A stretch of DNA of 64,000 nucleotides from a bacterium (GTDB lineage Bacteria; BMS3Abin14): positions 187,597-251,596 of the forward strand of contig CP070719.1 in assembly GCA_020350725.1 (NCBI GenBank). Reading direction: 5' to 3'. The position numbers were made by a program, and so were the translations under genes. Positions 13,467-38,326 of this stretch are shown piece by piece. The notes below the pieces were generated by a model that was not told the origin of the DNA, did no database searches, and saw nothing but the letters and a program-made list of their open reading frames with translations. Position 1 is the first letter of the stretch. Every line of letters begins with the position of its first letter.

Positions 13467-13550
13467 CCGGATTCCTCCTTTCCGGGGCCTTGCCGCAGGG
13501 CGCTTCCCCGCGGACCTTGTTAAAGTTATTCTTTTCACATATGTATCAGA

Positions 13551-13581: not shown

Positions 13582-13588
13582 GCCACTG

Positions 13589-17221: not shown

Positions 17222-17321
17222 ATTATATTGAATGCACGACCTGGCCCTTTTTCGTCCACCATAACAGGGCAATAAGTATAAAATCCGGCTCTTGGCCGAT
17301 CAACGACCTGGAGGCAGATCC

Positions 17322-19937: not shown

Positions 19938-20425
19938 TCCGGAGCGCCGAGATCTTCAGCTCCCAGGAGCACAGGGACATGGAGGCGATCGTGGCCCGTT
20001 ACGACAGCCCGGCATCGGCGATCCTCCCCCTGTTCCACTACATCCAGAAGATCCAGGGATATCTCTCCGAGGACGCTCTCACCTTCGTGGCCGAATTCGT
20101 CGGGGTCCCCCACGTCAGGGCATTCGAGGTGGCGACCTACTACACGATGCTTTTCACCGATCCGCCCGGCAGGCATCTCATCCAGTTATGCAGGAACCTG
20201 AGCTGTCACGTCAACGGGGCCGAGGACATTCTGGAGAAACTGAAGGAAGAGCTGGGTATCCAGGTCGGGGGGACCTCGGGCGACGGTCTGTTCACTCTCG
20301 TCGAGGTCGAGTGCATTGGCGCGTGCGACCTGGCGCCGGCGGTCATGGTCGACGGAGACCTCCACGGCCGCGTCTCGGCGGATGCGGTCCGCGGAATCCT
20401 GGATTCGTACAGAGGGAAGGCGTAG
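19934..20425 (+). CDS. nuoE: NADH-quinone oxidoreductase subunit E (first copy)
   Basis: 163 residues, thioredoxin-like [2Fe-2S] subunit of the NADH-input module. The four ligand cysteines are in LCRNLSCHVNGA (CxxxxC) and ECIGACDLAP (CxxxC). The N-terminal helical domain (SAILPLFHYIQKIQGYLSEDAL) is normal. The ATG overlaps the nuoD stop. A paralogue occurs 5 kb downstream in the same operon. Confidence 0.96.
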   Translation: MIRSAEIFSSQEHRDMEAIVARYDSPASAILPLFHYIQKIQGYLSEDALTFVAEFVGVPHVRAFEVATYYTMLFTDPPGRHLIQLCRNLSCHVNGAEDILEKLKEELGIQVGGTSGDGLFTLVEVECIGACDLAPAVMVDGDLHGRVSADAVRGILDSYRGKA

Positions 20426-20430: not shown

Positions 20431-21708
20431 TTGAAGATCCTGACCAGAAACATCGACAGGCCAAACCCCGCGCACATCGATTCCTACCTCGTCAACGAGG
20501 GCTATGTGGCGCTTCCCAGAGCCCTCAATGAGATGAAACCGGAAGAGGTCATCGACGAGGTCAAATTCTCCCGACTTCGGGGCCGGGGCGGAGCGGGTTT
20601 CCCGGCGGGCATGAAGTGGGATTTCGCGTCGCGGGACAGGAGGAAGCCCAAGTACATCATCTGCAATGCCGACGAAGGTGAACCGGGGACCTTCAAGGAC
20701 AGGGTGCTCATCGAAAAGGACCCCCACGCCATACTGGAGGGAATGGCGATCGCCGGCTATGCGGTAGGTGCCGAATACGGCTTCATCTATATCCGGGGTG
20801 AGTATCCGGTGGGAGCCAGGATATTGGAGAGGGCCATCGCCGAGGCGGAGAAAAGGTCCTTTCTGGGCAGGAACATCCTCAATTCGGGTTTCAACTTCCA
20901 CATCGTCGTCCACCGTGGCGCCGGCGCCTACATCTGCGGGGAGGAAACGGCCCTCATAGAGTCTCTCGAGGGAAAGCGGGGGCAGTCCCGCATAAGGCCG
21001 CCGTTCCCCGTGAACGTGGGCTACAGCAACCTGCCGACGGTGGTCAACAACGTCGAGACCCTCGCCTCCGTCGCCCCCATCATCCTGAGGGGCGGCAACT
21101 GGTATGCCAATATCGGGACCCACGAGTGTCCCGGGACGAAACTGTATTCCGTGAGCGGCCATGTCCGGAATCCCGGCGTGTACGAGCTCCCAATGGGAGT
21201 GACCTTGAGGGAACTGGTCTTCGAACACGCCGGGGGGATGAGGGAGAACCGGACCTTCAAGGCGGCCTTCCCCGGCGGTGCCTCATCGGCCTGCCTGGAC
21301 GAATCCGAACTGGACGTCAGGCTCGACTTCAATTCCCTGGCGGCGGTGGGAAGCATGCTGGGGTCCGGGGCGGTGATGGTTCTCGACGACACCGCCGACA
21401 TGGTCAAAGTGGCCCACGTCCTCATCAAATTCTTCGAGCACGAGTCCTGCGGCAAGTGCACACCCTGCAGAGAGGGGCTCTTCTGGGTCAGGAGGGTTCT
21501 GGATGCCATCCTCGAGGGGAGAGGCACGGAGGCCGACCTGGACCTTCTCCTGGACGTGTGCGAGGGGATACGCTCCACATCCTTCTGCGGCCTCGGTGAG
21601 GCATCCATCAACCCCGTAGTGAGCACCATTAAGAAATTCCGCCACGAGTACATGGCCTATATCAGGGGGCAAAGCCTGGCCGAAAGCAGTATGGAGGAGG
21701 CGTCGTAA
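20431..21708 (+). CDS. nuoF: NADH-quinone oxidoreductase subunit F (first copy)
   Basis: 425 residues. This is the NADH- and FMN-binding subunit. GRGGAGFPAGMKW and CNADEGEPGTFKDR bind FMN/NADH, GAGAYICGEETALIESLEG is the glycine-rich loop, and ESCGKCTPCREG plus the later SFCGLG cysteine bind cluster N3. A TTG start five bases after nuoE with AGGA upstream gives the family's normal N-terminus. Adjacent to nuoG with a one-base overlap. Confidence 0.97.
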   Translation: MKILTRNIDRPNPAHIDSYLVNEGYVALPRALNEMKPEEVIDEVKFSRLRGRGGAGFPAGMKWDFASRDRRKPKYIICNADEGEPGTFKDRVLIEKDPHAILEGMAIAGYAVGAEYGFIYIRGEYPVGARILERAIAEAEKRSFLGRNILNSGFNFHIVVHRGAGAYICGEETALIESLEGKRGQSRIRPPFPVNVGYSNLPTVVNNVETLASVAPIILRGGNWYANIGTHECPGTKLYSVSGHVRNPGVYELPMGVTLRELVFEHAGGMRENRTFKAAFPGGASSACLDESELDVRLDFNSLAAVGSMLGSGAVMVLDDTADMVKVAHVLIKFFEHESCGKCTPCREGLFWVRRVLDAILEGRGTEADLDLLLDVCEGIRSTSFCGLGEASINPVVSTIKKFRHEYMAYIRGQSLAESSMEEAS

Positions 21709-24386
21709 TGGTCCGGCTGACGATCGACGGTAGCCAGATAATGGTGGACGGGAACCTGAAGGTCCTCGATGCGGCGAAGAAGCTCGGCATTCACATCCCC
21801 ACCTTCTGCGATCATCCCCGGCTGAGCGAGCTGGGCGCCTGCAGGATGTGTCTCGTCGAAGTCGAGGGAATGGGCAAGCTCCAGACGGCCTGTACCCTTG
21901 CGGTGGCTGACGGGATGGTGGTCCTGACGGACACACCCCGCGTGGAACACGCCCGGAAGATGATGTTGGAGTTCCTGCTCATCAACCACCCGCTGGAGTG
22001 CACGGTCTGCGACGCTTCCGGCGAGTGCACACTCCAGGACTTCGCCTTCAAGTACGGCAGCGCCGAGACCCGTTTCAGGGGAGAAAAGAGGGTGTTGAGG
22101 GACCACATCATCAGCCCCCTTATCGACCGGAACCTCAACCGATGCATCCAGTGCAAGAGGTGCGTGCGGATCTGTGATGAGATACAGGGAGTAACTGCTC
22201 TGGGGATGTCCTACAGGGGAGCGGCCACCGTGGTCGGGCCCTTCATGGACAAGGACCTCGACTGCGAGTACTGCAGCCATTGCATCTGGTCCTGCCCCGT
22301 CGGAGCCATCACGTCCCGGGCCATGAAACAGAAGGTGAGAACGTGGGAACTGGAGAAGGCCGAGGCCATATGTCCCTTCTGCAGCTGCGGCTGCACCCTT
22401 CTCTACAACACCAGGAACAACATCGTCCACCGCGTGACCCATGCCGAGGGGAGAGGAGTCAATCAGGGGAGTCTGTGCTCAAAGGGCTATTTCGGTTACG
22501 ACATCATTAATCATCCGGACAGGATCACCAGCCCCCTGGTCCGGGATCCGGAGGGATCTCTCCGGACCGCCACCTGGGATGAAGCCCTCGACACCGTTGC
22601 CGGCAGGCTGAGCCAGATCCTCGAGGAGAGCGGGGGAGAGTCCATCGGGGGGATCGCCACGGACCGGCTCACGAACGAGGAGCTCTTCCTGTTCCAGAAG
22701 CTGTTCAGGGTGGGTTTTGCCAGCAACAACATCGACATTCCGTCCGGGGTCTGGTCCCGTGCGGTCCTTCCCGTCCTGGAGGAGCGCCTTGGCGTCTTCG
22801 CCGCCACCAACTCGATGGACGAACTCAATTACGTCAACGCCCTTCTCCTCATCGGCTGCGACATCACCGTCGCAAGCCCGATAGCCGGTCTCAAGGTCAA
22901 GCACGCCATCCAGCGGGGCGGGCTGGTCACGGAGATCACCCCCAAGGGAACGGCTCTGTCCCGGCTGGCCAAAAGGTCCCTGGTCGTGTCCTTGGGCAAG
23001 GAGTTGGCCTTCGTCAAGGGTCTCATCAAGGTTGTCCTGGAGGAGGGACTCTACGACGAGAAGGCCGTCGGGGGGCACAAGAGGTTCTCCAACCTCGAGT
23101 TTTCCGTCAAGGGACGGGACCTGAAAACCATCGCCCGTGACCTTGACCTGACGGTGGACGATATCGCGGATACCGCCCGCGAATTCGCCTCGGCCCAGAA
23201 AGCGTCTGTCGTCTTCGGGGAGACGGCGGCCCTGCAGCCAGGCGGTCAGGACCTGATCAACGCGCTGATCGATCTGATGATCCTTACCGGCAAACTGGGT
23301 CAGGAGGGATGTGGTCTCTATCCGGTCATCACCAACACCAATTTCCAGGGTGCCGTCGACATGGGGGTTGATCCGGGCCGACTGCCGGGGCACGTCCCGG
23401 CCGACTCGCCTTCTGTCAGGAAACATCTGGAGAAGATCTGGAAGGCGAAGCTGCCGAAAGCGAAAGGGATGAACGCCCTCGAGATGATCCAGGCCGCTTC
23501 GGATGGCAGTCTGAAAGCCCTTTATCTGGTGGGCGTCAATCCCGTGGCATCCTTTCCCGGCGGAAGCGGTGTCACGGAAGCCCTGGAGAAACTGGATTTT
23601 CTGGTTGTCCAGGAACTCTTCCTCACCGAGACGGCCCTCAGGGCCGACGTGGTCCTGCCGGCTGTCTCCACGGCGGAGAAGAACGGTACCTTGACGAGCA
23701 TGGAACGGCGCATTCAGAGGACCCAGAGGGCTATTGAGGGGGTGGGCCATTCCATGCCCGACTGGAGGATATTCTCCCAGCTGGGAACCGCCTGCGGCAA
23801 AGAGGTGATGAAATACGTGAACGCGGCCGAGGTGCTGGAGGAGATCGCCGAGGTGGTCCCGTACTACTCCGGTGTAAGCCACCGCATCCTGGCCGACAAC
23901 GGACTGCAGTGGCCCTTTTCCAAAGAGGACGCGCGGGAGATCTACCACGAGGGATACCTTGGTACACGGCATCTTCTGGGAGACGGCCTTCCGTCGGACA
24001 AACAGAGGTTCGCCGCCGTTGAGAACTGGGAAACGATCAGCCCCGACGCCGACTTTCCCATGACGCTGGTCCTGGGTGACCTTCTCTTTCATTCGGGAAC
24101 CTTTACCAGGTATTCGGAATCCCTGAACAAGCTGGCCTCCGAGGCCACCTTGTTCATGAACCCCCAGACGGGTATCGGGCTGGACGTGCCCGAAGGCAGC
24201 GCCGTGCGGGCCATTTCCGCCCAGGGGGAGTTCTCCGTAAGGGTCGCCTACGCGGAGGAACTCGCTCCGGGCGTGCTTTTCATACCGCGTCATTTCGCCA
24301 ACGCCCCGGCAGGCACTCTCATGGTGTCGACCCGGGAGGGCGGGACCGAGACCGCCGTGGTCCGTGTCAGGGTAGTGAAGGCGTGA
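21708..24386 (+). CDS. nuoG: NADH-quinone oxidoreductase subunit G (first copy)
   Basis: 892 residues. In order: [2Fe-2S] domain (CDHPRLSELGACRMC, AC), His-Cys [4Fe-4S] region (HPLECTVCDASGEC), two ferredoxin-like clusters (CIQCKRCVRIC, CEYCSHCIWSCPVG), an extra [4Fe-4S] (CPFCSCGC...CSKG) and a molybdopterin oxidoreductase-like domain with a C-terminal MopB-binding-like part. The position of the catalytic Cys/Sec of formate dehydrogenases (after NNID, about residue 349) is not Cys, so the domain is probably not catalytic, as expected for complex I. Confidence 0.95.
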   Translation: MVRLTIDGSQIMVDGNLKVLDAAKKLGIHIPTFCDHPRLSELGACRMCLVEVEGMGKLQTACTLAVADGMVVLTDTPRVEHARKMMLEFLLINHPLECTVCDASGECTLQDFAFKYGSAETRFRGEKRVLRDHIISPLIDRNLNRCIQCKRCVRICDEIQGVTALGMSYRGAATVVGPFMDKDLDCEYCSHCIWSCPVGAITSRAMKQKVRTWELEKAEAICPFCSCGCTLLYNTRNNIVHRVTHAEGRGVNQGSLCSKGYFGYDIINHPDRITSPLVRDPEGSLRTATWDEALDTVAGRLSQILEESGGESIGGIATDRLTNEELFLFQKLFRVGFASNNIDIPSGVWSRAVLPVLEERLGVFAATNSMDELNYVNALLLIGCDITVASPIAGLKVKHAIQRGGLVTEITPKGTALSRLAKRSLVVSLGKELAFVKGLIKVVLEEGLYDEKAVGGHKRFSNLEFSVKGRDLKTIARDLDLTVDDIADTAREFASAQKASVVFGETAALQPGGQDLINALIDLMILTGKLGQEGCGLYPVITNTNFQGAVDMGVDPGRLPGHVPADSPSVRKHLEKIWKAKLPKAKGMNALEMIQAASDGSLKALYLVGVNPVASFPGGSGVTEALEKLDFLVVQELFLTETALRADVVLPAVSTAEKNGTLTSMERRIQRTQRAIEGVGHSMPDWRIFSQLGTACGKEVMKYVNAAEVLEEIAEVVPYYSGVSHRILADNGLQWPFSKEDAREIYHEGYLGTRHLLGDGLPSDKQRFAAVENWETISPDADFPMTLVLGDLLFHSGTFTRYSESLNKLASEATLFMNPQTGIGLDVPEGSAVRAISAQGEFSVRVAYAEELAPGVLFIPRHFANAPAGTLMVSTREGGTETAVVRVRVVKA

Positions 24387-24399: not shown

Positions 24400-24867
24400 A
24401 TGATCGACGTTAGCGAACTGAAGGAACTGGAATCGCTCAAGGGTGTGTCCGACGGGGCTCTGAGCTTCCTTGCCGACGCTTTCCAGAAGCGCAGTTACAA
24501 CGACAAGGAACCCGTTTTCAACGAGGGGACACCGGGCGCTGATCTCTACATGGTGGGAGAGGGGAAGGTCAAGATCTCCAAGCGGGCCAAGGAGGGGGAG
24601 GCCCAGAGCCTGGCCATCGTGCCCGCCGGCCAGTTTTTCGGCATCATGACCTTTCTGACCGGGGGCAACCATTCGGCCAACGCCAGCGCTCACGGCAGCT
24701 GCTCTCTCTACATGCTGGACCGCGAGTCCTTCGACCGCTTCGCCGACCAGTTCCCCGCCGATGCGGTCAAGGTCATGAAACTGTTCATCGAACGACTGGT
24801 CGACTCCCTCAGGAGCATGAACGAGCGTTACATCGACATGGTGAACTATATGTGGAGGTGGCGGTGA
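24400..24867 (+). CDS. stand-alone cyclic nucleotide-binding (Crp-type) domain protein
   Basis: 155 residues. The whole protein is one cNMP-binding beta-roll followed by a helix: FNEGTPGADLYMVGEGKVKI, the PAGQFFGIMTFLTGG region at the phosphate-binding cassette, and a dimerisation-like helix VKVMKLFIERLVDSLRSMN. No helix-turn-helix follows, so it is not a DNA-binding regulator. The phosphate-binding Arg of true cAMP receptors is not evident (FGIMTFLTGGNHSANA). It starts 13 bases after nuoG and its stop overlaps the second nuoE (GTGA). It may gate or anchor the second dehydrogenase module; that is inference. Confidence 0.85.
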   Translation: MIDVSELKELESLKGVSDGALSFLADAFQKRSYNDKEPVFNEGTPGADLYMVGEGKVKISKRAKEGEAQSLAIVPAGQFFGIMTFLTGGNHSANASAHGSCSLYMLDRESFDRFADQFPADAVKVMKLFIERLVDSLRSMNERYIDMVNYMWRWR

Positions 24868-25409
24868 GCGCCGATGTAACATTGGAGGACGTCAGGCAGG
24901 ACGCCGGTCTGGAAGAGACGGAAGAACCCCTCGATCTGGCTCCCGTCCAGAGGATCATAGAGTCCCTCGGAGAGACCAAGGGCATGCTCATCCCGGTCCT
25001 CCAGGAGGTCCAGAAGGTCTACGGATACGTCCCCGAGGAGGCGGCCGATATGGTGGCCGATCTCATGGGGATCTACCCCAGTCAGGTGTTCGGTGTCCTG
25101 ACCTTTTACACCCAGTTCCACCTGACCCCGCGGGGACGGCACATCATCAGAGCCTGCTCGGGCACCGCCTGTCACGTCAGGGGTGGAAAAAGCGTCATCT
25201 CGAAACTGGAACACATGCTCGGTATCGGTCACGGTGAGACCACCGAGGATATGTTCGCCTCCTTTGAGAAAGTGGCATGCCTCGGGGCATGCGGGCTCGC
25301 CCCGGTGATCATGATCGACAACGATGCCCACGGGCAGCTCGATGCCGTCAAGACCGAGAGGATCATGGAGAACCTTCGGGAGATGGATATGATGAAGAGG
25401 GGAGAATAG
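24864..25409 (+). CDS. NuoE-like [2Fe-2S] subunit (second copy)
   Basis: 181 residues, thioredoxin-like 24-kDa family. Cysteine ligands are RACSGTACHVRGG (CxxxxC) and VACLGACGLAP (CxxxC), and the N-terminal helical part reads MLIPVLQEVQKVYGYVPEEAAD. A 25-residue acidic N-terminal extension differs from the first NuoE. GTG start overlaps the previous stop, with GGAGG 5 bases upstream; GTG at 24852 is an alternative. It feeds the adjacent NuoF-like fusion in a second NAD(P)H-input module, as in HydABC- or Nfn-like enzymes. Confidence 0.93.
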   Translation: MSADVTLEDVRQDAGLEETEEPLDLAPVQRIIESLGETKGMLIPVLQEVQKVYGYVPEEAADMVADLMGIYPSQVFGVLTFYTQFHLTPRGRHIIRACSGTACHVRGGKSVISKLEHMLGIGHGETTEDMFASFEKVACLGACGLAPVIMIDNDAHGQLDAVKTERIMENLREMDMMKRGE

Positions 25410-25439
25410 AGGGCGCTCCTCGGGAGGACAAGGCGTTAC

Positions 25440-28400
25440 ATGGGATACGACAGCGATAAACTCATTGTGATCGGAATGGGGACCTGCGGTCTCGCCTCCG
25501 GAGCGAGGGGGGTCCTGACCGAGGTGGAGCAGCAGATGGATGCCCTGTCCATCGACGTCCCCATCCTCAAGACGGGCTGCATCGGTATGTGCTACCAGGA
25601 GGTTCTGGTCGACGTCTCCCTTCCGGGCAGGGCCCGGGTCACTTACGCCAAGGTCGAACCGGAGATGATCGCCGCCATCGTCAAGAGCCACGTGGTCAAC
25701 GGGAAACCGGTGACCGACTATGCCATCGGCCAGATCACCAAAAACGGCGAGAAGATCTACAAGGGCATTCCAACCTACGAGGAGCTCGATTTTTTCAAGA
25801 AGCAGACGCGCATCGTCCTCAGACGGTGCGGGTTCATCGATCCGGACAGGATCGAGGACTACCTGGACTCGGACGGCTACCTGGCAGCCGAGAAGGCCAT
25901 CAGGACCATGTCTCCCACCATCGTCCGTGAGGTGGTCAAGAAATCAGGGCTGAGGGGGCGCGGGGGAGGCGGTTTTCCCACCGGCTTGAAGTGGGAGTTC
26001 TGCGCCCATGCCGCCGGCGACCCGAAGTACCTCATCTGCAACGCCGACGAGGGCGACCCGGGGGCCTTCATGGACCGCAGCGTCCTGGAGGGCGATCCCC
26101 ACGCCGTGATCGAGGGCATGATCATCGCCGCTTTTGCCATCGGGGCGCGGTACGGATACATCTACTGCCGGGCCGAGTACCCCCTCGCCATCGAGCGCCT
26201 CATCACGGCCATCGCCCAGGCAGAGGAGAGGAACTACCTCGGCGAGAACATCTTCGGCACGGATTTTTCCTTCCACCTCAGGATAAAGGAAGGTGCGGGT
26301 GCCTTCGTGTGCGGGGAGGAAACTGCCCTCATGGCCTCCATCGAGGGGAGAAGGGGCATGCCCCGATCACGTCCCCCCTTTCCGGCCCACAGGGGGCTCT
26401 GGAATCAGCCGTCCAATATCAACAATGTCGAGACTTTCGCCTGCGTCCCCCCGATCATCCTCAAGGGGCCGGACAGTTACGCCAGCATCGGCACTGAGGG
26501 GACCAAGGGGACCAAGGTCTTTGCCCTCACCGGCAAGATCAATCACACGGGGCTCATTGAGGTTCCGGCCGGGACCCAGCTGAAGGAGATCATCTACGAC
26601 ATCGGAGGCGGCATCGTGGGAGGGGGCAAATTCAAGGCCGCCCAGCTCGGGGGACCGTCGGGCGGCTGTCTGCCCGCCGAGATCGTCGAGACACCCATCG
26701 ACTACGACTCCCTCATCCAGGCCGGAGCCATGATGGGATCCGGCGGCGTGGTCATCATGGACGACAGGACCTGCATGGTGGACGTGGCCAGGTTTTTCCT
26801 CACCTTCACCACCGCCGAGTCGTGCGGGAAGTGCGTGCCCTGCAGAATGGGGACCCGGACCATGCTGGGCATCCTGGACCGTATCACATCCGGTACGGGG
26901 ACCATGGAGGACCTGAAGAATCTCGAGGAGCTCGGTGGCGAGATCAAGAACACCTCGCTCTGCGGTCTGGGTCAGACCGCCGCTAATCCGGTGCTGTCCA
27001 CCATCCGCTATTTCCGCAAGGAATACGAGTCCCATATCACCGAGAAGCGCTGCCCCGCGGTCGTCTGCAAGACGATCATCTCGTCTCCCTGTCAGCACGT
27101 CTGTCCCATCGAGACGGATGTGCCGGCCTACGTCACCCTCATCGGCCAGGGTAAGTACAGCGAGGCCCTGGAGCTCATCCGGCTGACAAACCCTCTGCCC
27201 GCCGTCTGCGGACGGGTATGCCACCACCCCTGCGAGAGCAAGTGCCGCCGCGGCGATCTCGATGAACCCATCAGTATCCGCACGCTCAAACGGGTGGCGG
27301 CGGATTTTGCAGCCCAGGATGAGGCCACCGGGAAATACAGTATCAACGTCAAGCAGATCTCGGGGACGGGAAAGAAGGTCGCCATCATCGGCGGCGGGCC
27401 GGCGGGGCTGACGGCGGCCCATTTCCTGGCCCAGGCCGACTTCTCGCCGGTGATCTTCGAGGCCCAGCGCGTTGCCGGCGGCATGCTCATCCTGGGGATC
27501 CCGGAGTACCGGTTGCCCAGGGAGACCCTGAGCCATGAGATAGCCGCCATCGAGAGGATGGGCGTCCAGTTCCACCTCAATACTCCGGTGGGACAGACCG
27601 TCTCCTTCGATCAGATACGCATGGAGCATGAGGCCGTGTTCATCGCCACGGGAGCCCATGTCGACCTGAAGATGGGCGTCCCGGGGGAGGATGCGAAGGG
27701 CGTCTACGAGAGCCTCTCCTTCCTCAGGAGATTCAATCTCGGAGAGGAAGTGCCGCTGGGCAAGAGGGTTGCGGTGGTCGGAGGGGGCAACACGGCCATC
27801 GACGCCTGCCGGGTTGCGCGGAGGATGGGGGCCGAGGTCACCATCCTGTACAGAAGGACGCGCAGAGAGATGCCCGCCGACGACATGGAGATCGAGGAGG
27901 CCATCAACGAGGGGGTCGACCTTCAGACCCTGGTGGCTCCGGTCCAGATCCTGACCTCGGGGGGCAGGATGACCAAAGTCCAGTGCATCCGGATGGAACT
28001 GGGGGAGCCCGATTCCTCGGGCCGCCGCCGCCCGGAACCCGTTGAGGGCTCGGAGTTCGAACTGGAGTTCGACAACCTGATCGTCGCGGTCAGCGGCCAG
28101 CCAGACCTCTCCTTCCTGGGAGAGGGGCACGGGCTCAGCATCAGCAAGTGGAACTCCATCGACGTCCACCCCTTCACCCAGATGACCGACGTCGAGGGCA
28201 TTTTTGCCGGGGGCGATGTGGTGACCGGTCCCTGGATGGTCATCGACGCGATAGCGGCCGGCAAGAGAGCCGCCGTCCACATGGAACTCTACCTGAACGG
28301 CGAGGAAGTGTCTCCTCAGTACCGCATAACGAGGCCGAACATCGAACCTGTGGAGGCCATTGAGCTGACCGAGGAGGACATGCACCTGACGAGACCGGGC

Positions 28401-28520
28401 ATGCCCACCATGGAGATCGAGAAGAGGCTCCGCGATTTTGCTGAGGTCGAGCTGGGCTACACCAAGGAGATGGCCATGAAGGAGGCGAGGCGCTGTCTCC
28501 GGTGTGACACCGAGGATTGA
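25440..28520 (+). CDS. fused NuoF-like and GltD/NfnB-like flavoprotein
   Basis: 1026 residues. Residues 1-95 are a thioredoxin-like domain with three visible cysteines (16, 47, 51). Residues 165-345 are NuoF: GRGGGGFPTGLKW, CNADEGDPGAFMDR, GAGAFVCGEETALMASIEG. An SLBB part and the ESCGKCVPCRMG cluster site follow (460-510). From about 535 the chain continues as a GltD/NfnB-type protein: cysteines CxxxC near 551-555, CGRVCHHPCESKC (590-602), FAD site GGGPAGLTAAHFL (651-663), second dinucleotide site VVGGGNTAIDACRVARR with LYRRTRREMPA, typical of NADPH binding, and a closing GGDVVTGP. Thus one chain could use FMN with NADH and FAD with NADPH. SfrB of Geobacter and NfnB are the nearest analogues to the second half. 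It lies inside the nuo operon. Confidence 0.92.
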   Translation: MGYDSDKLIVIGMGTCGLASGARGVLTEVEQQMDALSIDVPILKTGCIGMCYQEVLVDVSLPGRARVTYAKVEPEMIAAIVKSHVVNGKPVTDYAIGQITKNGEKIYKGIPTYEELDFFKKQTRIVLRRCGFIDPDRIEDYLDSDGYLAAEKAIRTMSPTIVREVVKKSGLRGRGGGGFPTGLKWEFCAHAAGDPKYLICNADEGDPGAFMDRSVLEGDPHAVIEGMIIAAFAIGARYGYIYCRAEYPLAIERLITAIAQAEERNYLGENIFGTDFSFHLRIKEGAGAFVCGEETALMASIEGRRGMPRSRPPFPAHRGLWNQPSNINNVETFACVPPIILKGPDSYASIGTEGTKGTKVFALTGKINHTGLIEVPAGTQLKEIIYDIGGGIVGGGKFKAAQLGGPSGGCLPAEIVETPIDYDSLIQAGAMMGSGGVVIMDDRTCMVDVARFFLTFTTAESCGKCVPCRMGTRTMLGILDRITSGTGTMEDLKNLEELGGEIKNTSLCGLGQTAANPVLSTIRYFRKEYESHITEKRCPAVVCKTIISSPCQHVCPIETDVPAYVTLIGQGKYSEALELIRLTNPLPAVCGRVCHHPCESKCRRGDLDEPISIRTLKRVAADFAAQDEATGKYSINVKQISGTGKKVAIIGGGPAGLTAAHFLAQADFSPVIFEAQRVAGGMLILGIPEYRLPRETLSHEIAAIERMGVQFHLNTPVGQTVSFDQIRMEHEAVFIATGAHVDLKMGVPGEDAKGVYESLSFLRRFNLGEEVPLGKRVAVVGGGNTAIDACRVARRMGAEVTILYRRTRREMPADDMEIEEAINEGVDLQTLVAPVQILTSGGRMTKVQCIRMELGEPDSSGRRRPEPVEGSEFELEFDNLIVAVSGQPDLSFLGEGHGLSISKWNSIDVHPFTQMTDVEGIFAGGDVVTGPWMVIDAIAAGKRAAVHMELYLNGEEVSPQYRITRPNIEPVEAIELTEEDMHLTRPGMPTMEIEKRLRDFAEVELGYTKEMAMKEARRCLRCDTED

Positions 28521-28567
28521 GCAAGAAGCCTCGACACGGACTTTCAGGGATAGACAGAGGAATATAG

Positions 28568-31345
28568 ATGTTCACAGTCACCGTAGACGGCAAAGAGGTC
28601 AAGGTTCCGAGGGGATCGACCATCCTGCAGGCTGCCCGCAAGCTGGAGATCGATATCCCCACCTTCTGCGATCACAAGTACCTGCTCCCATTCGGCTCCT
28701 GCCGCATGTGCGTGGTTGAGGTAGAGGGGACCGACAGGCTCTTCGCCTCCTGCGTCGTGCCGGTCACGGACGGGATGGAGATCCACACCAACACGGCCCG
28801 GGTCAGGAGGGCCAGGGAGACCGTCCTCGAGCTTCTCCTCACCTATCATCCCCTCGAGTGCCCCGTCTGTCCCCAGTCCGGGCGGTGCCTGCTTCAGGAC
28901 ATGGTGTTCGAGCACGGCAAGGACTACGGACGGTTCGGTCACATACACGTGGAGAAGAGGATCGACCACCTCTCTCCGCTCATCGAGATGAACCAGAACC
29001 GGTGCATTCTCTGCGGCCGGTGCAGCAGGATCTGCGACGAGGTGCAGGGGGAAGGCGAGCTGGATTTCTCCGGCCGCGGTTTCCCCACTGTGGTCGAGCC
29101 CGCTTTCGCCAAGCCCATGGACTGCGAGTTCTGCGGCCAGTGCATCCAGGCCTGCCCTGTGGGATCCCTGTACAGCAGGATCTTCAAACACACCGCCCCG
29201 GTGTGGGAGCTGACACCCGTTCGCACTACCTGCCCCTTCTGCGGAGTCGGGTGCACGCTTCACCTGGAGGTCAAGGGCGACCGCATCTACCACGTCCTGG
29301 GTGTCGACGACGAGGGCTCCAACAACAACGGTTTTCTCTGCTGCAAGGGCCGTTTCGGTTACGAATACGTCCACCATCCGGACAGGATCAAGGAGCCGCT
29401 TGTCCGCGAGGGCGGGGAGCTGGTCCCGTCGACATGGGAGGATGCCTACGCGAGGATCCTCGACGGCATGGAGAGGATCCGCCGGGCCAGCGGGCCGGAT
29501 GCCCTGGGGGGGATCGCATCCGCGCGGTGCACCAACGAGGAGAACTACCTCCTGCAGAAGTTCATGCGGGCGGTTGTCGGGACCAACAACGTCGACTCCA
29601 TCGCCCGATTCGGGCACTTCCCGGGCATGGAGGCGCTGAGGAAGGCGTTCGGAGTGGAGGCTCCCTCCAACTCGCTGGGCGATCTTCAGCACTCCGACCT
29701 CATCTTCGTCCTGGATTCGAACGTCACTGAGGACGACCACGTCGCGGGCCTGAAAGTCCTCAAACAGGTCCGGTCGGGAAAGGCCAAACTCATAGCGGCC
29801 AACAGCAGGGGGGTCAAGATCACCCGGTTCGCCGACGCCTGGCTGAGACACGCGCCGGGGACCAGCGTGGCGCTGCTCAATTCCATGGCTTTCACGGTGT
29901 TGGAGGAGGGGCTCGAGGACGGTGAATTCTGCCGGCATCGGGTGGGGGGTCTGGAAGAGCTTCGGGCGTCCCTGGCGGACTCCTCTCCGGAGAAGATGGA
30001 GGAGATAACGAGGGTCCCGGCCGATCTGGTCAGGAACGCAGCCCGTTCCTTCGCCGAGGCCAGGAACGCCACCGTCCTGATCACCCTTGGCGGCGCCAGT
30101 CCGTACACGGGGGAGGATACCGTGGCCGCTGCCGTCAACCTGGTCCTCATCACCGGCAACGTCGGCCGGATCGGAGCCGGTATCATACCCCTGTCCGAGT
30201 ACAACAACATCCAGGGCTCCATGGACATGGGAGCTCTGGCGGAGTTCTTCCCCGGCTATCAGTCCGTTGCCGACGACGGCATCAGGGAGTGGTTCGAGGG
30301 TCAGTGGGGTGCGAAGCTGCCCGACCAGCCGGGGATGAACGCCATGAGCATGATCAGGGCTGCAGCCGAGGGTGGTCTGAAGGGCCTTTATGTCATGGGA
30401 GAGAACCCCCTGTCCTCCTTCCCGGATCAGGGTGTGGTGATGGACGCGCTTGAGAAACTGGACCTGCTGGTGGTTCAGGACATGTTCCTCACCGAGACGG
30501 CACTCTTCGCCGACGTCGTCCTGCCCGCCTCCTGCGGGCCGGAAAAAAACGGGACCTTCACCAATACCGACCGCCGCGTCCAGCGGGTGAGAAAGGCCAT
30601 CAACTCCCCGGCCGGAACGAGGGACGACTGGAAGATCATCACCGAACTGGCCACGGCCATGGGATACGAGATGAAGTACGATTCAGCAATGGACGTGCTC
30701 AGAGAGATCACCACCACCATCCCCTTTTACGCCGGTATCCTTCCCGAACGGCTGGACGACCGGGGCATTCACTGGCCCTGTCCCCGTCCCGACCACCCGG
30801 GGACCGAGGTGCTTCACGTGGACCGTTTCCCCAGCGGCCTGGGGCGCGCCCGACCGGTCCCGTATCGGGAGCCCAGGAAGGCCTCCGCCAACTATCCCTA
30901 CACCCTCGTACCCGGGACCCTGCTCTATCACTCCGGCACGACGACGACCATGGCGAAAGGTCTCAATGTGATCGCCCCCACGGCGAAGGCGGAGATCCAC
31001 CCCTCGGATGCGGAGGAGTTGGAACTGACCGCGGGCGACTGGGTCAGGATAACCGGCATGAGGGGCATCATCGAGGTGGAGGTCAAAATCTCCAGGAGAA
31101 GCATGCCCGGGACCGTTTTCGTCCCCACCCATTATCGCGACGTGTCCGTCAATGCCCTGATGGGTTATGACACCGCCAAGGAGAGCAGCATCGCCCACGT
31201 TTCCGTGAAGCGGATCGAGAGGGTCGAGATCAAGGGAAAGGAAGCTGAGGGGCCGGTTTCGAGACTGAAGAGGACGGTCCAGGAGATACAGGAAAAACGG
31301 CGCCAGGTTGCTGATGAAGCCGGCCCGGATGTTTCAGGAGGGTAA
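28568..31345 (+). CDS. NuoG/formate dehydrogenase alpha-like iron-sulfur protein (second copy)
   Basis: 925 residues with the same order as the first NuoG: [2Fe-2S] (CDHKYLLPFGSCRMC), HPLECPVCPQSGRC, two ferredoxin clusters (CILCGRCSRIC, CEFCGQCIQACPVG), [4Fe-4S] CPFCGVGC...CCKG and a molybdopterin domain. It is closer to formate dehydrogenase than the first copy, yet the catalytic Cys/Sec position reads ARFGHFPG (Gly349, His350), so formate oxidation is unlikely. A charged 40-residue tail follows the MopB-binding domain. It probably partners the NuoF-GltD fusion, as SfrA does SfrB. An in-frame start with AGAGGAA upstream was used. Confidence 0.9.
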   Translation: MFTVTVDGKEVKVPRGSTILQAARKLEIDIPTFCDHKYLLPFGSCRMCVVEVEGTDRLFASCVVPVTDGMEIHTNTARVRRARETVLELLLTYHPLECPVCPQSGRCLLQDMVFEHGKDYGRFGHIHVEKRIDHLSPLIEMNQNRCILCGRCSRICDEVQGEGELDFSGRGFPTVVEPAFAKPMDCEFCGQCIQACPVGSLYSRIFKHTAPVWELTPVRTTCPFCGVGCTLHLEVKGDRIYHVLGVDDEGSNNNGFLCCKGRFGYEYVHHPDRIKEPLVREGGELVPSTWEDAYARILDGMERIRRASGPDALGGIASARCTNEENYLLQKFMRAVVGTNNVDSIARFGHFPGMEALRKAFGVEAPSNSLGDLQHSDLIFVLDSNVTEDDHVAGLKVLKQVRSGKAKLIAANSRGVKITRFADAWLRHAPGTSVALLNSMAFTVLEEGLEDGEFCRHRVGGLEELRASLADSSPEKMEEITRVPADLVRNAARSFAEARNATVLITLGGASPYTGEDTVAAAVNLVLITGNVGRIGAGIIPLSEYNNIQGSMDMGALAEFFPGYQSVADDGIREWFEGQWGAKLPDQPGMNAMSMIRAAAEGGLKGLYVMGENPLSSFPDQGVVMDALEKLDLLVVQDMFLTETALFADVVLPASCGPEKNGTFTNTDRRVQRVRKAINSPAGTRDDWKIITELATAMGYEMKYDSAMDVLREITTTIPFYAGILPERLDDRGIHWPCPRPDHPGTEVLHVDRFPSGLGRARPVPYREPRKASANYPYTLVPGTLLYHSGTTTTMAKGLNVIAPTAKAEIHPSDAEELELTAGDWVRITGMRGIIEVEVKISRRSMPGTVFVPTHYRDVSVNALMGYDTAKESSIAHVSVKRIERVEIKGKEAEGPVSRLKRTVQEIQEKRRQVADEAGPDVSGG

Positions 31346-31350
31346 ACGCT

Positions 31351-32349
31351 ATGATCTGCCCGGAATGCAATCTGCTGATTCCAGATGACAGCAGGTACTG
31401 TAAGGAGTGCGGCAGCAGGCTGGAGGCCACCGTCGAGGAGCAGGAGACCCTCTCCAACCAGGAAAAGGCGGAGAGGCTCTACCGGGAGGGGATCTCCCTC
31501 TATCACCAGGGACTCTTCGACGAGGCCATCAAGAACTGGGAGGAGACGCTGGAGCTGATCCCGGACTTCCAGATGACCTCCTATTACATGGGGGCCGCCT
31601 TCTACGACAAGGGCATGCTGAGCAAGGCCCTGGAGTGCTTCAAGAAGGCCGAGGCCGCCAACCCAACCTCCCCCGCCGTCCATTACAGGCTGGGCATGGC
31701 CTGCTACGCCATGGGGCTTCTTCCGGATTCCGAGTTCCACTTCAAGAAGGTCCGGAGCATCATTCCCGACACCGCCCAGATCCATTACCGGCTCGCTCTC
31801 CTCCACCAGAAGAACGCCAATCTGGACGAGGCCGTCTCGGAGCTGAACAGGGCTCTCGAGATATCACCCCAGTTCGCCAGGGCCCTGTACATATTGGGAA
31901 CGGTCTACTACCAGAAGGGAATGCTCGCCGAGGCCGCCGAATCCCTGCGGCAGGTTGTCGGGATCTCCCCCGGTTACGTGATGGCCTATTACTGGCTGGG
32001 GCAGGTCTATTTCCACAAGGGGAACATGGGAGACGCCATCGAGTCCTACGAGAAAGCCATCGCCCTGTCCCCCAAGTTCACCGCGGCCTACTATCACCTG
32101 GGGGTGGCTCAGGCACGGAAGGGCCAGCACGAGGACGCGGCGGCAAGCTTCAACAAGGTCAAGGAACTGGATCCCACGGACTCGAGCGCCCTCTATCACC
32201 TCGGTAACAGCTACGTCCATCTGGGGATGCTGGACAAGGCGGAAGAGATCCTCAACGAGGCCATTAAGCTCAACCCCGAGAACACCCAGGCCTATTTCCT
32301 CCTTGAAAAAGTCGGCGAGATCAAGCGGTCCGGCGCCATGGAGTACTGA
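31351..32349 (+). CDS. zinc-ribbon and TPR-repeat protein in the nuo operon
   Basis: 332 residues. A four-cysteine zinc ribbon (CPECN...CKECGSRL, residues 3-23) is followed by about eight tetratricopeptide repeats (LYREGISLYHQGLFDEAIKN, ALECFKKAEAANPTSPAVHY, and so on) to the end. No signal peptide, so cytoplasmic. It lies 5 bases after the second NuoG and 23 bases before nuoH, in the same direction. TPR proteins bind partner proteins, so an assembly or docking factor for the second dehydrogenase module is plausible, but unproven. Confidence 0.88.
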   Translation: MICPECNLLIPDDSRYCKECGSRLEATVEEQETLSNQEKAERLYREGISLYHQGLFDEAIKNWEETLELIPDFQMTSYYMGAAFYDKGMLSKALECFKKAEAANPTSPAVHYRLGMACYAMGLLPDSEFHFKKVRSIIPDTAQIHYRLALLHQKNANLDEAVSELNRALEISPQFARALYILGTVYYQKGMLAEAAESLRQVVGISPGYVMAYYWLGQVYFHKGNMGDAIESYEKAIALSPKFTAAYYHLGVAQARKGQHEDAAASFNKVKELDPTDSSALYHLGNSYVHLGMLDKAEEILNEAIKLNPENTQAYFLLEKVGEIKRSGAMEY

Positions 32350-32372: not shown

Positions 32373-33395
32373 ATGGAAAACCTCGGTCCCACCCTTACCA
32401 TATTGCTGACCCTCGTCAGGATCGTCCTCGTCATGACGATAGCTCTGCTCAGCGTGCCCGTCATGGTCTGGGTGGAGAGGAAGGTCTCCGGACACATCCA
32501 GAACCGCCATGGTCCGCTCTACGTCGGTCCCATAGGCACCCTGCAGCCATTTGCCGACGCGCTCAAGCTGCTCCTGAAGGAGGACATCACGCCGGCCAAC
32601 GTCGACAAGACCCTCTATTACCTCGCGCCGCTCATGGCGTTCGTCCCGGCCCTGATGACCTTCTCGGTCATACCGTTCGGACCCTGGCTCAAGATAGCCG
32701 ACGTCAATATCGGGGTGGTCCTCATCCTGTCGGTCTCCTCACTGGGAATCTACGGGCTCGTCATGGCCGGATGGTCCTCCAACAACAAATACGCCCTTCT
32801 CGGGAGCCTGAGGTCCTCGGCCCAGATGATCAGCTACGAGATCGCTCTCGGCCTGTCGGTCATCGGCGTGCTCATGCACTCCCGCTCCCTCTCGCTGGTC
32901 CAGATCGTCCAGCGGCAGGCGGAGACGACCTGGTTTGTCATTCCCCAGTTCCTCGGTTTCGTTCTCTTCACTGTGGCCGCTTTCGCGGAGACGAACCGGC
33001 TTCCCTTCGATCTCCCCGAGGCGGAACAGGAGCTGGTGGCGGGCTACCACGTCGAATATTCCAGTATGAAGTTCGCCATGTTCTTCATGTCCGAGTACGT
33101 CGCCATGCTGTCGCAGGCCTGTGTTCTGACCGTTCTCTTCCTGGGCGGATGGCTGCCTTTTCCCATCATCGGTCCCCTCGTGGAAGGCCTTCTGCCGGCT
33201 GTGGTCGTGGAGTGGGTCATGCCCCTCTTCTGGTTCTTCCTGAAAGTGGGCGGGTTCATGTTCTTCTACGTCTGGGTCCGATGGACTTTTCCCCGACTCC
33301 GATACGATCAGCTCATGGCCCTCGGCTGGAAGGTGCTTCTTCCCCTGGCCCTGTTTAACGTGTTTTTAACCGGTTTCATCCGGCTCAGCCTTTGA
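32373..33395 (+). CDS. nuoH: NADH-quinone oxidoreductase subunit H
   Basis: 340 residues, eight membrane helices. VWVERKVSGHIQNRHGP, the KLLLKEDITPANVDK loop, AETNRLPFDLPEAEQELVAGY and YVWVRWTFPRLRYDQLM are hallmarks of the quinone-site subunit. It resumes the standard subunit order after the five-gene insertion. Confidence 0.98.
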   Translation: MENLGPTLTILLTLVRIVLVMTIALLSVPVMVWVERKVSGHIQNRHGPLYVGPIGTLQPFADALKLLLKEDITPANVDKTLYYLAPLMAFVPALMTFSVIPFGPWLKIADVNIGVVLILSVSSLGIYGLVMAGWSSNNKYALLGSLRSSAQMISYEIALGLSVIGVLMHSRSLSLVQIVQRQAETTWFVIPQFLGFVLFTVAAFAETNRLPFDLPEAEQELVAGYHVEYSSMKFAMFFMSEYVAMLSQACVLTVLFLGGWLPFPIIGPLVEGLLPAVVVEWVMPLFWFFLKVGGFMFFYVWVRWTFPRLRYDQLMALGWKVLLPLALFNVFLTGFIRLSL

Positions 33396-33414
33396 ACTCA
33401 AGGAGCGCTCTAAA

Positions 33415-33873
33415 GTGGGTTTAATGACCAATATCCTTCAGACCGACCTGATCAAGGGGCTGACCCTCACCCTCCAGAACTTCTTCAAGAAGCCCGTCAC
33501 CCTTCGCTACCCCGAGGTCAGGTACGAACTCCCCGACACGTTCAGGGGGGCCCAGATCCTCAAGAGGGATTCGGAGGGGAGCGAGCGCTGCGTGGGGTGC
33601 GGGCTGTGCCCGGAAATATGCCCATCCAAAGCCATCACCCTGATCACATCCGAGGATGAGGAGGGTGAAAAGAGGGTGGATTTCTACCAGATCCACCTCG
33701 GCCTCTGCATCTACTGCGGATACTGTCAGGAGGTCTGCCCGGTGGATGCCGTCTGGATGGGACGGGATTACGAACTTTCCCTGACGGATCCGTCCAGGCT
33801 CAAGGTCACCAAGGAGGAGATGCTGCAAAAGGGGGATGACCCCCACTACGATCGTCTCGGGGAGAGCAGGTAA
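33415..33873 (+). CDS. nuoI: NADH-quinone oxidoreductase subunit I
   Basis: 152 residues. Two [4Fe-4S] ferredoxin motifs, CVGCGLCPEICP and CIYCGYCQEVCP, carry clusters N6a/N6b. The N-terminal amphipathic helix (LIKGLTLTLQNFFKK) lies on the membrane. GTG start with AGGAG 9 bases upstream; ATG three codons later is the alternative. nuoJ follows after one base. Confidence 0.97.
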   Translation: MGLMTNILQTDLIKGLTLTLQNFFKKPVTLRYPEVRYELPDTFRGAQILKRDSEGSERCVGCGLCPEICPSKAITLITSEDEEGEKRVDFYQIHLGLCIYCGYCQEVCPVDAVWMGRDYELSLTDPSRLKVTKEEMLQKGDDPHYDRLGESR

Positions 33874-33874
33874 A

Positions 33875-34396
33875 ATGGGACTTCAATCCTTTCTTTTCTA
33901 CTATTTCGCCATCGTGATCATCGCCACGGCGGCGCTGACGGTTTCCCGCAGGAATCCCATCCATTCGGTGATGTTTCTCGTGCCCTGCTTTATCCACACG
34001 GCGGGCCTGTTCCTCCTGTTGGGGGCGGAGTTCCTGGCGGCCATCCAGGTCCTCGTCTACACGGGTGCCATAATGGTCCTCTATCTGTTCGTGGTCTTTC
34101 TCCTCGACCTTCCCTCCTTCCGGATCAAGAAGATCACCCATCAGCAGACGCCCCTGGCGGTCCTCGCGGGCCTTGTCCTGGTGGTCCAGATCATCGTTCT
34201 GACCGTCGTCGCCGTCTTCCCGAGGCCGGCGGCCGAGGTCAAGGCCCCTTATTTTCTAGGCAACACGGAGGCGGTAGGGGCAAGCCTTTACACGACTTTC
34301 CTGTTCCCCTTCGAACTCGCGTCCCTGGTCCTTCTGGTCGCCATCTTCGGAGCGGTCGTGCTGGCCCGCAGGGAGAGAGGGGAGGAGCTACCGTGA
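33875..34396 (+). CDS. nuoJ: NADH-quinone oxidoreductase subunit J
   Basis: 173 residues, five membrane helices. The helix with [23 protein letters not shown] is the conserved pi-bulge helix of NuoJ/ND6. The start is ATG immediately after nuoI; the longer frame overlaps nuoI. Its end overlaps nuoK (GTGA). Confidence 0.96.
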
Positions 34397-34695
34397 TCAC
34401 ACTGACTCACTATCTCGTTCTTGGCGCCATCGTCTTCCTCATCGGCATCATGGGTGTGCTTCTGAGGAGGAACGTTATTATTATTCTGCTCTCCATCGAG
34501 TTGATGCTCAACGCGGTCAATATCAACATGGTGGCCTTCTCCGATTACCTGCAGAATATGTCGGGCCAGGTCTTTGTCTTCTTCATCATGACGGTGGCTG
34601 CCGCCGAGGCGGCCATCGGGCTGGCTATTGTGGTTGTCCTGTTCAGAAATCGGGAGACGATCGATGTGGACAGGATCAACGTCATGAGGTGGTAG
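34393..34695 (+). CDS. nuoK: NADH-quinone oxidoreductase subunit K
   Basis: 100 residues, three helices, normal NuoK/ND4L length. [22 protein letters not shown] contains the membrane glutamate, and [15 protein letters not shown] the second. GTG start overlaps nuoJ. Confidence 0.97.
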
Positions 34696-34703
34696 GAGCC
34701 GTT

Positions 34704-36647
34704 ATGACCGATGCAGTTGCACTGGTACCCCTGTTTCCCCTTCTGGCCGTCCTGGTCAACCTCTTCATCGGCAAGAGGCTGTCAAAGAAGGCGGTTGGAA
34801 TCCTGGCCTGCGGCGCCGTCGGCGCCTCCCTGGGCGCCTCGGTCCTTGCCGTCGCCGGGCTCATGGCCATGGAGGTCGGTCACCGGTCCGTCGAGGTGAT
34901 CCTCTTCCCGTGGATCGTCTCGGGCGGTTTCCAGGTCCCCATCGGGTTCCTGCTGGATCCCCTGTCCGCGGTGATGATCCTCGTCGTCACCGGTGTCGGT
35001 TTCCTGATCCACGTCTACAGCACGGGATACATGCACGAGGACGCGGGTTTCGCCCGCTATTTCCTCTTTCTCAACCTCTTCGTGTTCGCCATGCTCCTCC
35101 TCGTGCTCGGCAACAGCTACCTCCTGCTCTTCATCGGCTGGGAAGGGGTCGGCCTCTGCTCCTACCTCCTGATCGGTTTCTGGTTCACCAAGGACAGCGC
35201 CTCCGACGCCGGCAAGAAGGCCTTCATCGTCAACCGGGTAGGGGACTTCGGTTTCATCCTGGGCATGCTCCTGATCGTCTATCACTTCGGGACCCTGCAT
35301 TATGGGCAGGTTTTCGCCAGAGCGCCTGAACTCTTTCACGCCGGAGACCTGCCGATGGTCCTCATCACCGCTCTCCTGTTCGTGGGCGCTATGGGCAAAT
35401 CGGCCCAGCTTCCCCTTCACGTGTGGCTTCCGGACGCCATGGAGGGTCCGACACCCGTTTCCGCCCTGATCCACGCCGCCACCATGGTGACGGCCGGCGT
35501 ATACATGGTCTGCCGGAGCAGCGCGCTCTATGAACTGGCGCCTGTCATCCTGAGCCTGGTGGCCGTCATCGGGTGTCTGACCGCTTTCTTTGCCGGCACC
35601 ATCGCCCTCGTCCAGAACGACATCAAACGGGTGCTCGCCTATTCCACGGTCAGCCAGCTGGGGTATATGTTCCTGGCCGCCGGGGTAGGCGCCTACGTGG
35701 CGGCCATTTTCCATCTCGTCACCCATGCCTTTTTCAAGGCCCTCCTCTTTCTCGGGTCCGGCAGCGTTATCCACGCCCTCCACGAGGAGCAGGACATTCG
35801 AAAGATGGGAGGGCTCAAGAAGTATATGCCGACCACCCACAGGACCTTCGTCATCGGATCGCTTGCCATAGCGGGCATTCCCCCCCTGGCCGGGTTCATG
35901 TCCAAGGACGAGATCCTCTACGAGGTTTTCAACGCGGGGAAGGGAACAGGCTGGGTCCTTCTCTGGATCGGCGGTATCGTTACGGCCCTGATGACCGCCT
36001 TCTATATGTTCCGACTGGTATACCTTACCTTCTACGGCGAATCGAGGATGGACGAGGAAGTGGAGAAACACGTTCATGAATCACCCCCTCCCATCACCGT
36101 TCCCCTGACCATCCTCGCCGTACTCTCCGCTGTGGGTGGTTTTCTGGGCATTCCCGTCATCAAGAAGTGGAACATCATGCACAACTGGCTGGGAGAGGCA
36201 TTCCACGCTGCCGCCGAGCACACCACCGAGGCGGCGACGCACGCCGCCTCCGCCGTTTCCCATCTGACCGTTGAGCTGGGGCTCATGACGGTCTCGGTGG
36301 TTGTTGCGGTGAGCGGCATCCTTATCGCCAGGACCATCATCCTGCGCAGGCCGGCCCTTGCCGAGAAGATGAGGAACGACTACAGCTTCCTCTATAGCCT
36401 GTTCCTCAACAAATGGTGGGTCGACGAACTCTACGACCTCACGATAGTCAATCCCCTCAAGAGATTCGCTGATATGTGCTGGTCGGTGTTCGACGTCAAG
36501 GGGATCGACGGCACGGTCAACGGGACAGCGAAGGTGGCCAACGTTTCCGGGGGAGTGCTGAGGAAACTCCAGACCGGGTTTGTCCAGAACTATGCCCTCG
36601 GCATCGTCATCGGTCTGGCCCTGATGCTGGTGCTGGCGTTCTTCTAA
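34704..36647 (+). CDS. nuoL: NADH-quinone oxidoreductase subunit L
   Basis: 647 residues, antiporter-like proton pump with a C-terminal lateral helix (LYDLTIVNPLKRFADMCW and a final membrane helix). EGVGLCSYLLIGFW, LPDAMEGPTPVSALIHAATMVTAGVY and the Lys-containing SKDEILYE are conserved. ATG with AGGAG at 5 bases was chosen over a GTG inside nuoK. Confidence 0.97.
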   Translation: MTDAVALVPLFPLLAVLVNLFIGKRLSKKAVGILACGAVGASLGASVLAVAGLMAMEVGHRSVEVILFPWIVSGGFQVPIGFLLDPLSAVMILVVTGVGFLIHVYSTGYMHEDAGFARYFLFLNLFVFAMLLLVLGNSYLLLFIGWEGVGLCSYLLIGFWFTKDSASDAGKKAFIVNRVGDFGFILGMLLIVYHFGTLHYGQVFARAPELFHAGDLPMVLITALLFVGAMGKSAQLPLHVWLPDAMEGPTPVSALIHAATMVTAGVYMVCRSSALYELAPVILSLVAVIGCLTAFFAGTIALVQNDIKRVLAYSTVSQLGYMFLAAGVGAYVAAIFHLVTHAFFKALLFLGSGSVIHALHEEQDIRKMGGLKKYMPTTHRTFVIGSLAIAGIPPLAGFMSKDEILYEVFNAGKGTGWVLLWIGGIVTALMTAFYMFRLVYLTFYGESRMDEEVEKHVHESPPPITVPLTILAVLSAVGGFLGIPVIKKWNIMHNWLGEAFHAAAEHTTEAATHAASAVSHLTVELGLMTVSVVVAVSGILIARTIILRRPALAEKMRNDYSFLYSLFLNKWWVDELYDLTIVNPLKRFADMCWSVFDVKGIDGTVNGTAKVANVSGGVLRKLQTGFVQNYALGIVIGLALMLVLAFF

Positions 36648-36714
36648 GGGCGGGAGATGGAGTCCAGGAAACAGCCTTCAGAGTAAAAAACCTTGAGGTG
36701 AGAAAAGAGAGCCG

Positions 36715-38304: not shown

Positions 38305-38326
38305 ATAGGCCAAGGGAGAGGAATAA

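Follow-up and report, generated by a model that had tools for sequence, protein, structure and literature searches.

In a 64,000-nucleotide stretch of a bacterial genome of the BMS3Abin14 lineage (contig CP070719.1, positions 187,597 to 251,596 of the forward strand; hereafter the window), part of a complete 2.78-Mb genome (G000), we identified a complex I operon that encodes NuoE-, NuoF- and NuoG-like subunits twice. Complex I is usually described with NADH as its only electron source, and its relatives use ferredoxin or F420. The second set of subunits in this operon, E2-F2-G2, is probably an alternative NADH-input (N) module for the operon's single complex I, with a core of the Bfu (HydBC-like) type and an NADP(H) port in the place of the ferredoxin port. 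The wider interpretation, which we regard as evenly balanced, is that two alternative N-modules serve one stem, that NADP(H) takes over from ferredoxin in a Bfu-type confurcating centre coupling NAD(H), NADP(H), quinone and the proton-motive force, and that this port has been swapped in nature.

The operon lies on one strand in the order nuoA-B-CD-E1-F1-G1, cNMP-E2-F2/GltD-G2-TPR, nuoH-I-J-K-L-M-N, as judged by Pfam matches, synteny and translation of the open reading frames. The first-pass annotation of the window had noticed five tightly spaced genes between nuoG and nuoH, and all five lie where it placed them. The gaps from nuoG1 through these genes to nuoH are 13, -16, 30, 47, 5 and 23 bp, a range of -16 to +47 bp. 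Further members of the phylum (G003, G007, G008 and G011) show the same five-gene order, with the five genes 67-88% identical, so the block reflects neither chance nor the misassembly of a single genome.

The F2 fusion and its partner subunits

The central gene of the block (25440..28520, +) encodes a 1026-residue BfuB-type NuoF2 fused to a GltD/StnC-type NADPH domain, an assignment that draws on Pfam, NCBIfam, relatives in the PDB, an alignment of 63 fusions and an AlphaFold2 (AF2) model. Pfam detects Complex1_51K, NADH_4Fe-4S, Fer4_20 and Pyr_redox_2 domains (E-values 2e-46 to 3e-25). Alignment and structural comparison divide the protein into a NuoF/BfuB half (amino acids 1-548; 25440..27083, +) and a GltD half (amino acids 550-1026; 27087..28517, +). 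In a PDB sequence search, the N-terminal 548 residues score 732 bits with 7t2r_B and 702 with StnB (8oh5_B), compared with 398 with Thermus Nqo1. By sequence, NuoE2 and F2 are a HydBC- or "BfuBC"-type pair of the electron-bifurcating enzymes, a relationship that the first-pass annotation had missed.

The NuoF half carries a thioredoxin (Trx)-like domain, an FMN/NADH site, the ligands of cluster B1 (C462, C465, C468 and C508) and those of cluster B2 (C445, T483, H532, C538 and C543), a Bfu-specific set (PMC9304861) that fits the family pattern Cys, Thr/Cys, His, Cys, Cys and whose His and Cys residues are missing from NuoF1. Four of these B2 residues (C445, H532, C538 and C543) are invariant in 63/63 aligned fusions, and position 483 is mostly T, C or S. 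The Trx-like domain is present with only cysteines 16, 47 and 51, compared with four for the B5 [2Fe-2S] cluster of the Bfu family; two of these are also missing from StnB. A simple duplication of NuoEFG can be ruled out as the origin of F2, given 47% identity to F1 over the common part together with the Bfu-only features, and the canonical NuoF model TIGR01959 scores F2 at 487, below its cut-off of 559. BfuB proteins known so far finish with a ferredoxin domain that holds clusters B3 and B4. This domain is absent from F2, and a Fer4_20/GltD domain follows the last B2 cysteine directly.

The AF2 model of the fusion, built on the 63 sequences, reached a pLDDT of 89.9 and a pTM of 0.84. Its NuoF half superposes on the BfuB subunit of NfnABC/Stn enzymes (VIA-align; Z 58.9 and 1.3 Å over 532 residues to 9bp5_B). 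With 8oh5_B, the model aligns over 555 of that chain's 584 residues, and the fit runs from model residue 7 to 614, into the cluster region of the GltD domain, which would thus sit roughly at the site of the StnB ferredoxin domain. As these VIA-align comparisons chiefly test amino acids 11-605, we do not take the missing full-length match among them as evidence. No chain in the Foldseek list spans both halves of the fusion, the best query-normalised TM-score being 0.51. Sequence, synteny and model together indicate that the NADH/FMN site of F2 is intact and that B1 and B2 of bifurcating BfuB are present.

In the GltD half, a distal [4Fe-4S] cluster would be held by C551 and C555 together with the C-terminal C1019 and C1022, and a proximal one by C594, C598 and C602 with K617. 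The FAD motif GGGPAG occupies residues 651-656, and the NADPH motif GGGNTA...YRR includes R805 and R806. The modelled half matches StnC and NfnL, the latter over 427 columns at 2.5 Å. The first-pass annotation had placed an NADH/FMN site and an FAD plus NADPH-type site in one protein, with structural modelling of the GltD half as the test of that claim; motifs, alignment and a confident model agree in finding the FAD/NADPH site intact. Its comparison to Nfn or SfrAB stands for the GltD/NfnB-type module and needs correcting as regards bifurcation, and the operon contains no gene for an NfnA or SfrA partner. As its fourth ligand, the proximal cluster has a Lys in StnC (K170), whose FAD is non-bifurcating, and a Glu in NfnB (PMC10482914). 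Position 617 is Lys in 60/63 fusions (this protein and 59/62 others) and His in three. Because the ligand is of the StnC rather than the NfnB type, the FAD of the GltD half is predicted to pass electrons in or out and not to bifurcate, which rules out an NfnB-like bifurcating FAD as our leading interpretation. The SfrB-like model PRK12771 covers only residues 503-1022 of the fusion, with a score under its cut-off, and the deep branches of a GltD tree are weak.

NuoE2 (24852..25409, +) is a BfuC-like [2Fe-2S] thioredoxin-like subunit (PF01257, E 2e-49; NF005722 above cut-off) with cluster cysteines at 102, 107, 143 and 147. NuoG2 (28568..31345, +) is a BfuA-like subunit with the formate dehydrogenase (FDH) fold: it matches the FDH alpha model TIGR01591 (E 2e-191) with 637 bits, short of the cut-off of 666, and its nearest PDB chains are FdsA-type enzymes. 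Pfam gives it NuoG/molybdopterin domains. Its cluster cysteines form the full NuoG set, identical to that of G1, and the catalytic Cys/Sec position is a Gly (ARFGH). That position is Gly, Ala or Ser in every complex I G2 seen, sisters included, whereas the FDH-like partners of other fusions (e.g. L056, L065, L105 and L118) keep Cys or an in-frame TGA. In L056 (11580-14276), the catalytic codon of the partner is an in-frame TGA/stop that probably encodes selenocysteine. With the same cluster cysteines as G1 and no catalytic Cys/Sec, G2 is best read as a NuoG-like electron conduit, and we rejected it as an active formate dehydrogenase. Pfam finds no GltD domain on G2, the GltD domain being on F2, and the operon has no HydA, the partner subunit being NuoG2.

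The block begins with a gene for a 155-residue cNMP-binding domain protein without a DNA-binding domain (24400..24867, +; PF00027, E 3e-19). Among NCBIfam families, its lone domain most resembles the cNMP portion of family 2B encapsulin shells, and comparison of the sister genomes confines the gene to operons with both N-modules. The block ends with a 332-residue zinc-ribbon TPR protein (31351..32349, +; TPR families; Cys 3, 6, 17 and 20), which is kept in the sister operons and may have a role in assembly or docking.

Operon types and the exchange of ports

Our sample of the phylum was one family of 12 genomes, in which the space between nuoCD and nuoH is filled in three ways. Canonical EFG1 stands there alone in G006 (assembled from two contigs), Bfu-type E2F2G2 is the sole N-module in G002 and G004, and both modules are found in G000, G001, G003, G005, G007, G008, G009 and G011, with G001 and G005 seen in part, broken by assembly gaps. 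There is a single nuoH in each of G002, G004 and G009, and a single 49-kDa gene in the genome of G000. Because these three interchangeable operon types share one position and the 49-kDa gene is present once, we favour a complex I head, and there is good support for the first-pass suggestion that the set could swap onto the stem. In G001, the fusion appears split: across stretches of N, the scaffold (L041/L042) ties both operon halves to unrelated sequence, and the break falls inside the fusion gene. We reject this split as genuine biology and attribute it to a scaffolding error.

The F2 genes at this nuoCD-nuoH position differ in their C-termini: those of G002, G004 and G009 encode a ferredoxin-type domain, the others a GltD domain. 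G003 (GltD) and G009 (ferredoxin-type) are from the same genus, and their operons are syntenic. Identity is 79% for E2 and 84% for F2, lower than for G1 (85%), the cNMP protein (90%), G2 (92%), the TPR protein (94%) and nuoH (93%). This difference suggests that the E2-F2 cassette was replaced. The G009 F2 falls with G003 in one tree and with G002/G004 in another (in which the L083 outgroup was badly extracted), and since the two trees disagree we use only the cassette identities as the argument for the swap. G004, with a ferredoxin-type F2 in its complex I, also holds at locus L040 (9745-13343) an E2 and BfuB-GltD pair alone, with no G subunit adjoining. G000 itself has a further Bfu-like set at about 336 kb (L163, 5772-8800), composed of an E subunit, a ferredoxin-type BfuB of 617 amino acids and a 228-residue BfuA/HoxU-like protein.

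Beyond the phylum, we scanned a genome collection by alignment across the fusion junction, leaving out near relatives. About 70 of the 80 named loci match across the entire junction, and the fusion is present in Moorella, Pelotomaculum, Spirochaetota, Planctomycetota, Acidobacteriota, Hydrogenedentota (L084) and others. Its neighbours elsewhere are mostly subunits of [FeFe]-hydrogenases or of active FDH, and none of the 80 named loci has it inside a complex I operon. A second, unrelated family does link the two, independently: in G064 (L184), the fusion stands directly before nuoA-B-C-D-G-H-I-J-K-L on one strand, and in G032 (L165), also of this family, it precedes nuoA-B-C-D-G in matching order as far as the contig extends. 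By synteny, then, a GltD-type head on complex I is not restricted to this phylum. A quick tree of 106 BfuB sequences, in a sampling that favours fusions, implies at least 12 changes between the two C-terminal types. As the types interchange both at one locus and across this tree, the ferredoxin and NADPH ports may be functionally equivalent, with NADP(H) in the role of ferredoxin.

These loci differ in local arrangement. In L184 (11423-13485) and L049 (6279-9122), of the second lineage, genes that we named by eye as Trx-like [2Fe-2S], small HATPase-like and PHP-type proteins, together with a small open reading frame, separate E2 from the fusion. In L051, L053, L057, L058, L068 and L110, the fusion adjoins a second, shorter BfuBC pair without the ferredoxin domain, together with HydA, and two neighbouring BfuBC pairs are common.

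A proposed mechanism and its rivals

We propose that two heads can alternate on the stem, canonical EFG1 and E2F2G2, the latter docked through G2 on NuoI/NuoCD in the manner of NuoG, and that the cNMP protein may help to choose between them. NADH would give its electrons at FMN and NADPH at FAD. These would converge at the FMN/B2/E2 centre and pass via G2 and NuoI to quinone, with protons pumped, a confurcation in which NADPH replaces reduced ferredoxin. In the reverse direction, proton-motive force and quinol would yield NADPH and NADH, and such NADPH formation is plausible since no PNTB was found in the G000 genome. If true, an N-module with NADH and NADPH sites would provide a pump-linked NADPH-quinone route for cells without PntAB. 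The exchange of ferredoxin and NADPH domains at one locus in close relatives is also a natural experiment on Bfu bifurcation, posing the question of whether the B2/FMN/E2 centre still gates when the low-potential partner is NADPH and not ferredoxin, and the double-module operon opens that of how one complex I stem selects between two heads.

Several points weigh against such a head. As a partner, NADPH (about -380 mV) is weaker than ferredoxin (-500 mV). Simple arithmetic on textbook potentials, with menaquinone as acceptor and 4 H+ per 2 e-, gives a supported proton-motive force of ~103 mV for NADH alone, ~128 mV for NADH with NADPH and ~158 mV for NADH with ferredoxin, so that NADPH, added to NADH, lifts it just from 103 to 128 mV. 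Co-location in an operon is no proof of co-assembly. Fusions elsewhere mostly adjoin hydrogenases and not complex I. Finally, the E2 and fusion pair of G004 stands apart from any G subunit, so the pair may also work without the stem.

This last arrangement also bears on the idea that E2-F2-G2 merely shares its transcript with complex I without docking on it and works as a soluble NADH:NADP(H) oxidoreductase, a transhydrogenase to which G2 might link a third partner. Its relatives Stn and NfnABC are soluble, and the lack of PNTB makes another transhydrogenase plausible. We nevertheless consider it unlikely: the set is the operon's only N-module in G002 and G004, the fusion is also found in the nuo operon of an unrelated family, and G2 retains the full NuoG cluster set yet has lost its own catalytic residue. 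Less likely still is a Stn-like enzyme of three substrates, in which ferredoxin would dock elsewhere on F2, E2 or G2 and the GltD domain would add NADP(H) as an extra substrate. Here, the B2 and FMN surroundings of bifurcating BfuB are wholly retained, and Rnf-like genes at 1.42 Mb (a PF01512 match and open reading frames) make reduced ferredoxin probably available. The B3/B4 domain through which ferredoxin is known to interact is gone, however, with GltD clusters in its place by alignment and roughly so in the model, and the two types of F2 alternate at one locus as though equivalent.

Bifurcation by the GltD half itself, as in NfnB, would make the fusion a double-bifurcating enzyme, a notion raised for the hydrogenases of Hydrogenedentota (PMC11406978). 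R691, the equivalent of NfnB R201 and StnC R239, is invariant in the 63 fusions, and the fold match to NfnL points the same way. With the StnC-type Lys in nearly all fusions and no NfnA gene in the operon, we find this very improbable. A role for G2 in a formate:NAD(P)H or formate:quinone enzyme, which its FDH-alpha score and FdsA-type relatives might suggest, is largely refuted by the below-threshold score and by the lost catalytic residue that genuine FDH partners keep, leaving it scarcely credible.

Relation to known systems and the surrounding genes

The alternative-head interpretation has precedents for two of its ingredients. A Bfu-type N-module on complex I, with ferredoxin and NADH as substrates, was proposed as Nuo-Bfu (Schut et al. 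2022, PMC9304861), e.g. in Geobacter sulfurreducens. As in that system, Bfu-type E, F and G genes lie amid a nuo operon. The present operon differs in that canonical EFG1 is kept, replacement of NuoEFG being limited to sisters G002 and G004, which fit Nuo-Bfu, and in that F2 has a GltD/NADPH domain instead of the B3/B4 ferredoxin domain. Nitrospina and Kuenenia NUO-2 have a similar NuoF2 bearing a ferredoxin domain. BfuB-GltD fusions have been described as BfuB sub-type I of the group A3 [FeFe]-hydrogenases of Hydrogenedentota (2024, PMC11406978). These share with F2, in the same order, the BfuB core, a DPD_II with two [4Fe-4S] clusters and an FAD/NAD(P) domain, B3/B4 being replaced; their partner is a hydrogenase, whereas that of F2 is the FDH-fold NuoG2 of a complex I operon.

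Stn/NfnABC enzymes (Sporomusa ovata, 8oh5; Caldicellulosiruptor, 9bov; Thermococcus sibiricus, 9n5u) have a homologous BfuBC core and a homologous GltD domain with the Lys-type proximal cluster and a permuted C-terminal CxxC. In Stn, the GltD domain forms an insertion within the NuoG-like StnC and StnB retains a ferredoxin domain, whereas NuoF2 bears GltD at its C-terminus. NfnAB and SfrAB share the GltD/NfnB-type FAD-NADPH module and differ in the points given above, namely the absent NfnA, the Lys for Glu and the partial SfrB-like match. E1-F1-G1 occupies the same operon slot and has the FMN/NADH fold and NuoG cluster set. Three features of F2 are missing from NuoF1 (the N-terminal Trx domain, the B2 ligands and the GltD domain), and the NADEGEPG motif of NuoF1 has a Glu where F2 has Asp.

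The first-pass annotation had called for a search of the fusion across genomes and had overlooked that both ingredients were published separately. The fusion is indeed widespread and described in hydrogenases. In the open-access literature searched, we found no description of double nuoEFG operons, of a complex I operon that has two N-modules and a GltD-type F2, or of an NADPH port replacing a ferredoxin port at a single locus.

The remaining genes of the operon, all on the plus strand, encode the rest of complex I. Its first gene, nuoA (17292..17696), is assigned by synteny and is 67-84% identical in the sister genomes. It is followed by nuoB (17666..18247; Oxidored_q6, E 3.5e-30) and nuoCD (18369..19937; Complex1_49kDa, E 2e-117), the sole 49-kDa copy in the genome, whose actual start is perhaps further downstream. 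The canonical module comprises nuoE1 (19934..20425; 2Fe-2S_thioredx, E 1.8e-48), with an inferred start in a reading frame that reaches up to 19748, nuoF1 (20440..21708; TIGR01959 above cut-off), also with an inferred start, and nuoG1 (21708..24386; TIGR01973 above cut-off). The common membrane arm and NuoI are encoded by nuoH-I-J-K-L-M-N (32373..39796; Pfam and synteny). A scan for promoters and terminators gave matches near chance expectation, and the operon limits are not defined by it.

Upstream of nuo on the opposite strand (6303-13781, -) are genes for a Rex-type redox regulator (Put_DNA-bind_N and CoA_binding), a Rieske protein, a protein with a weak match to the cytochrome b C-terminus, a b561-like protein and multihaem c-type cytochromes. 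This group suggests a respiratory chain that feeds multihaem cytochromes.

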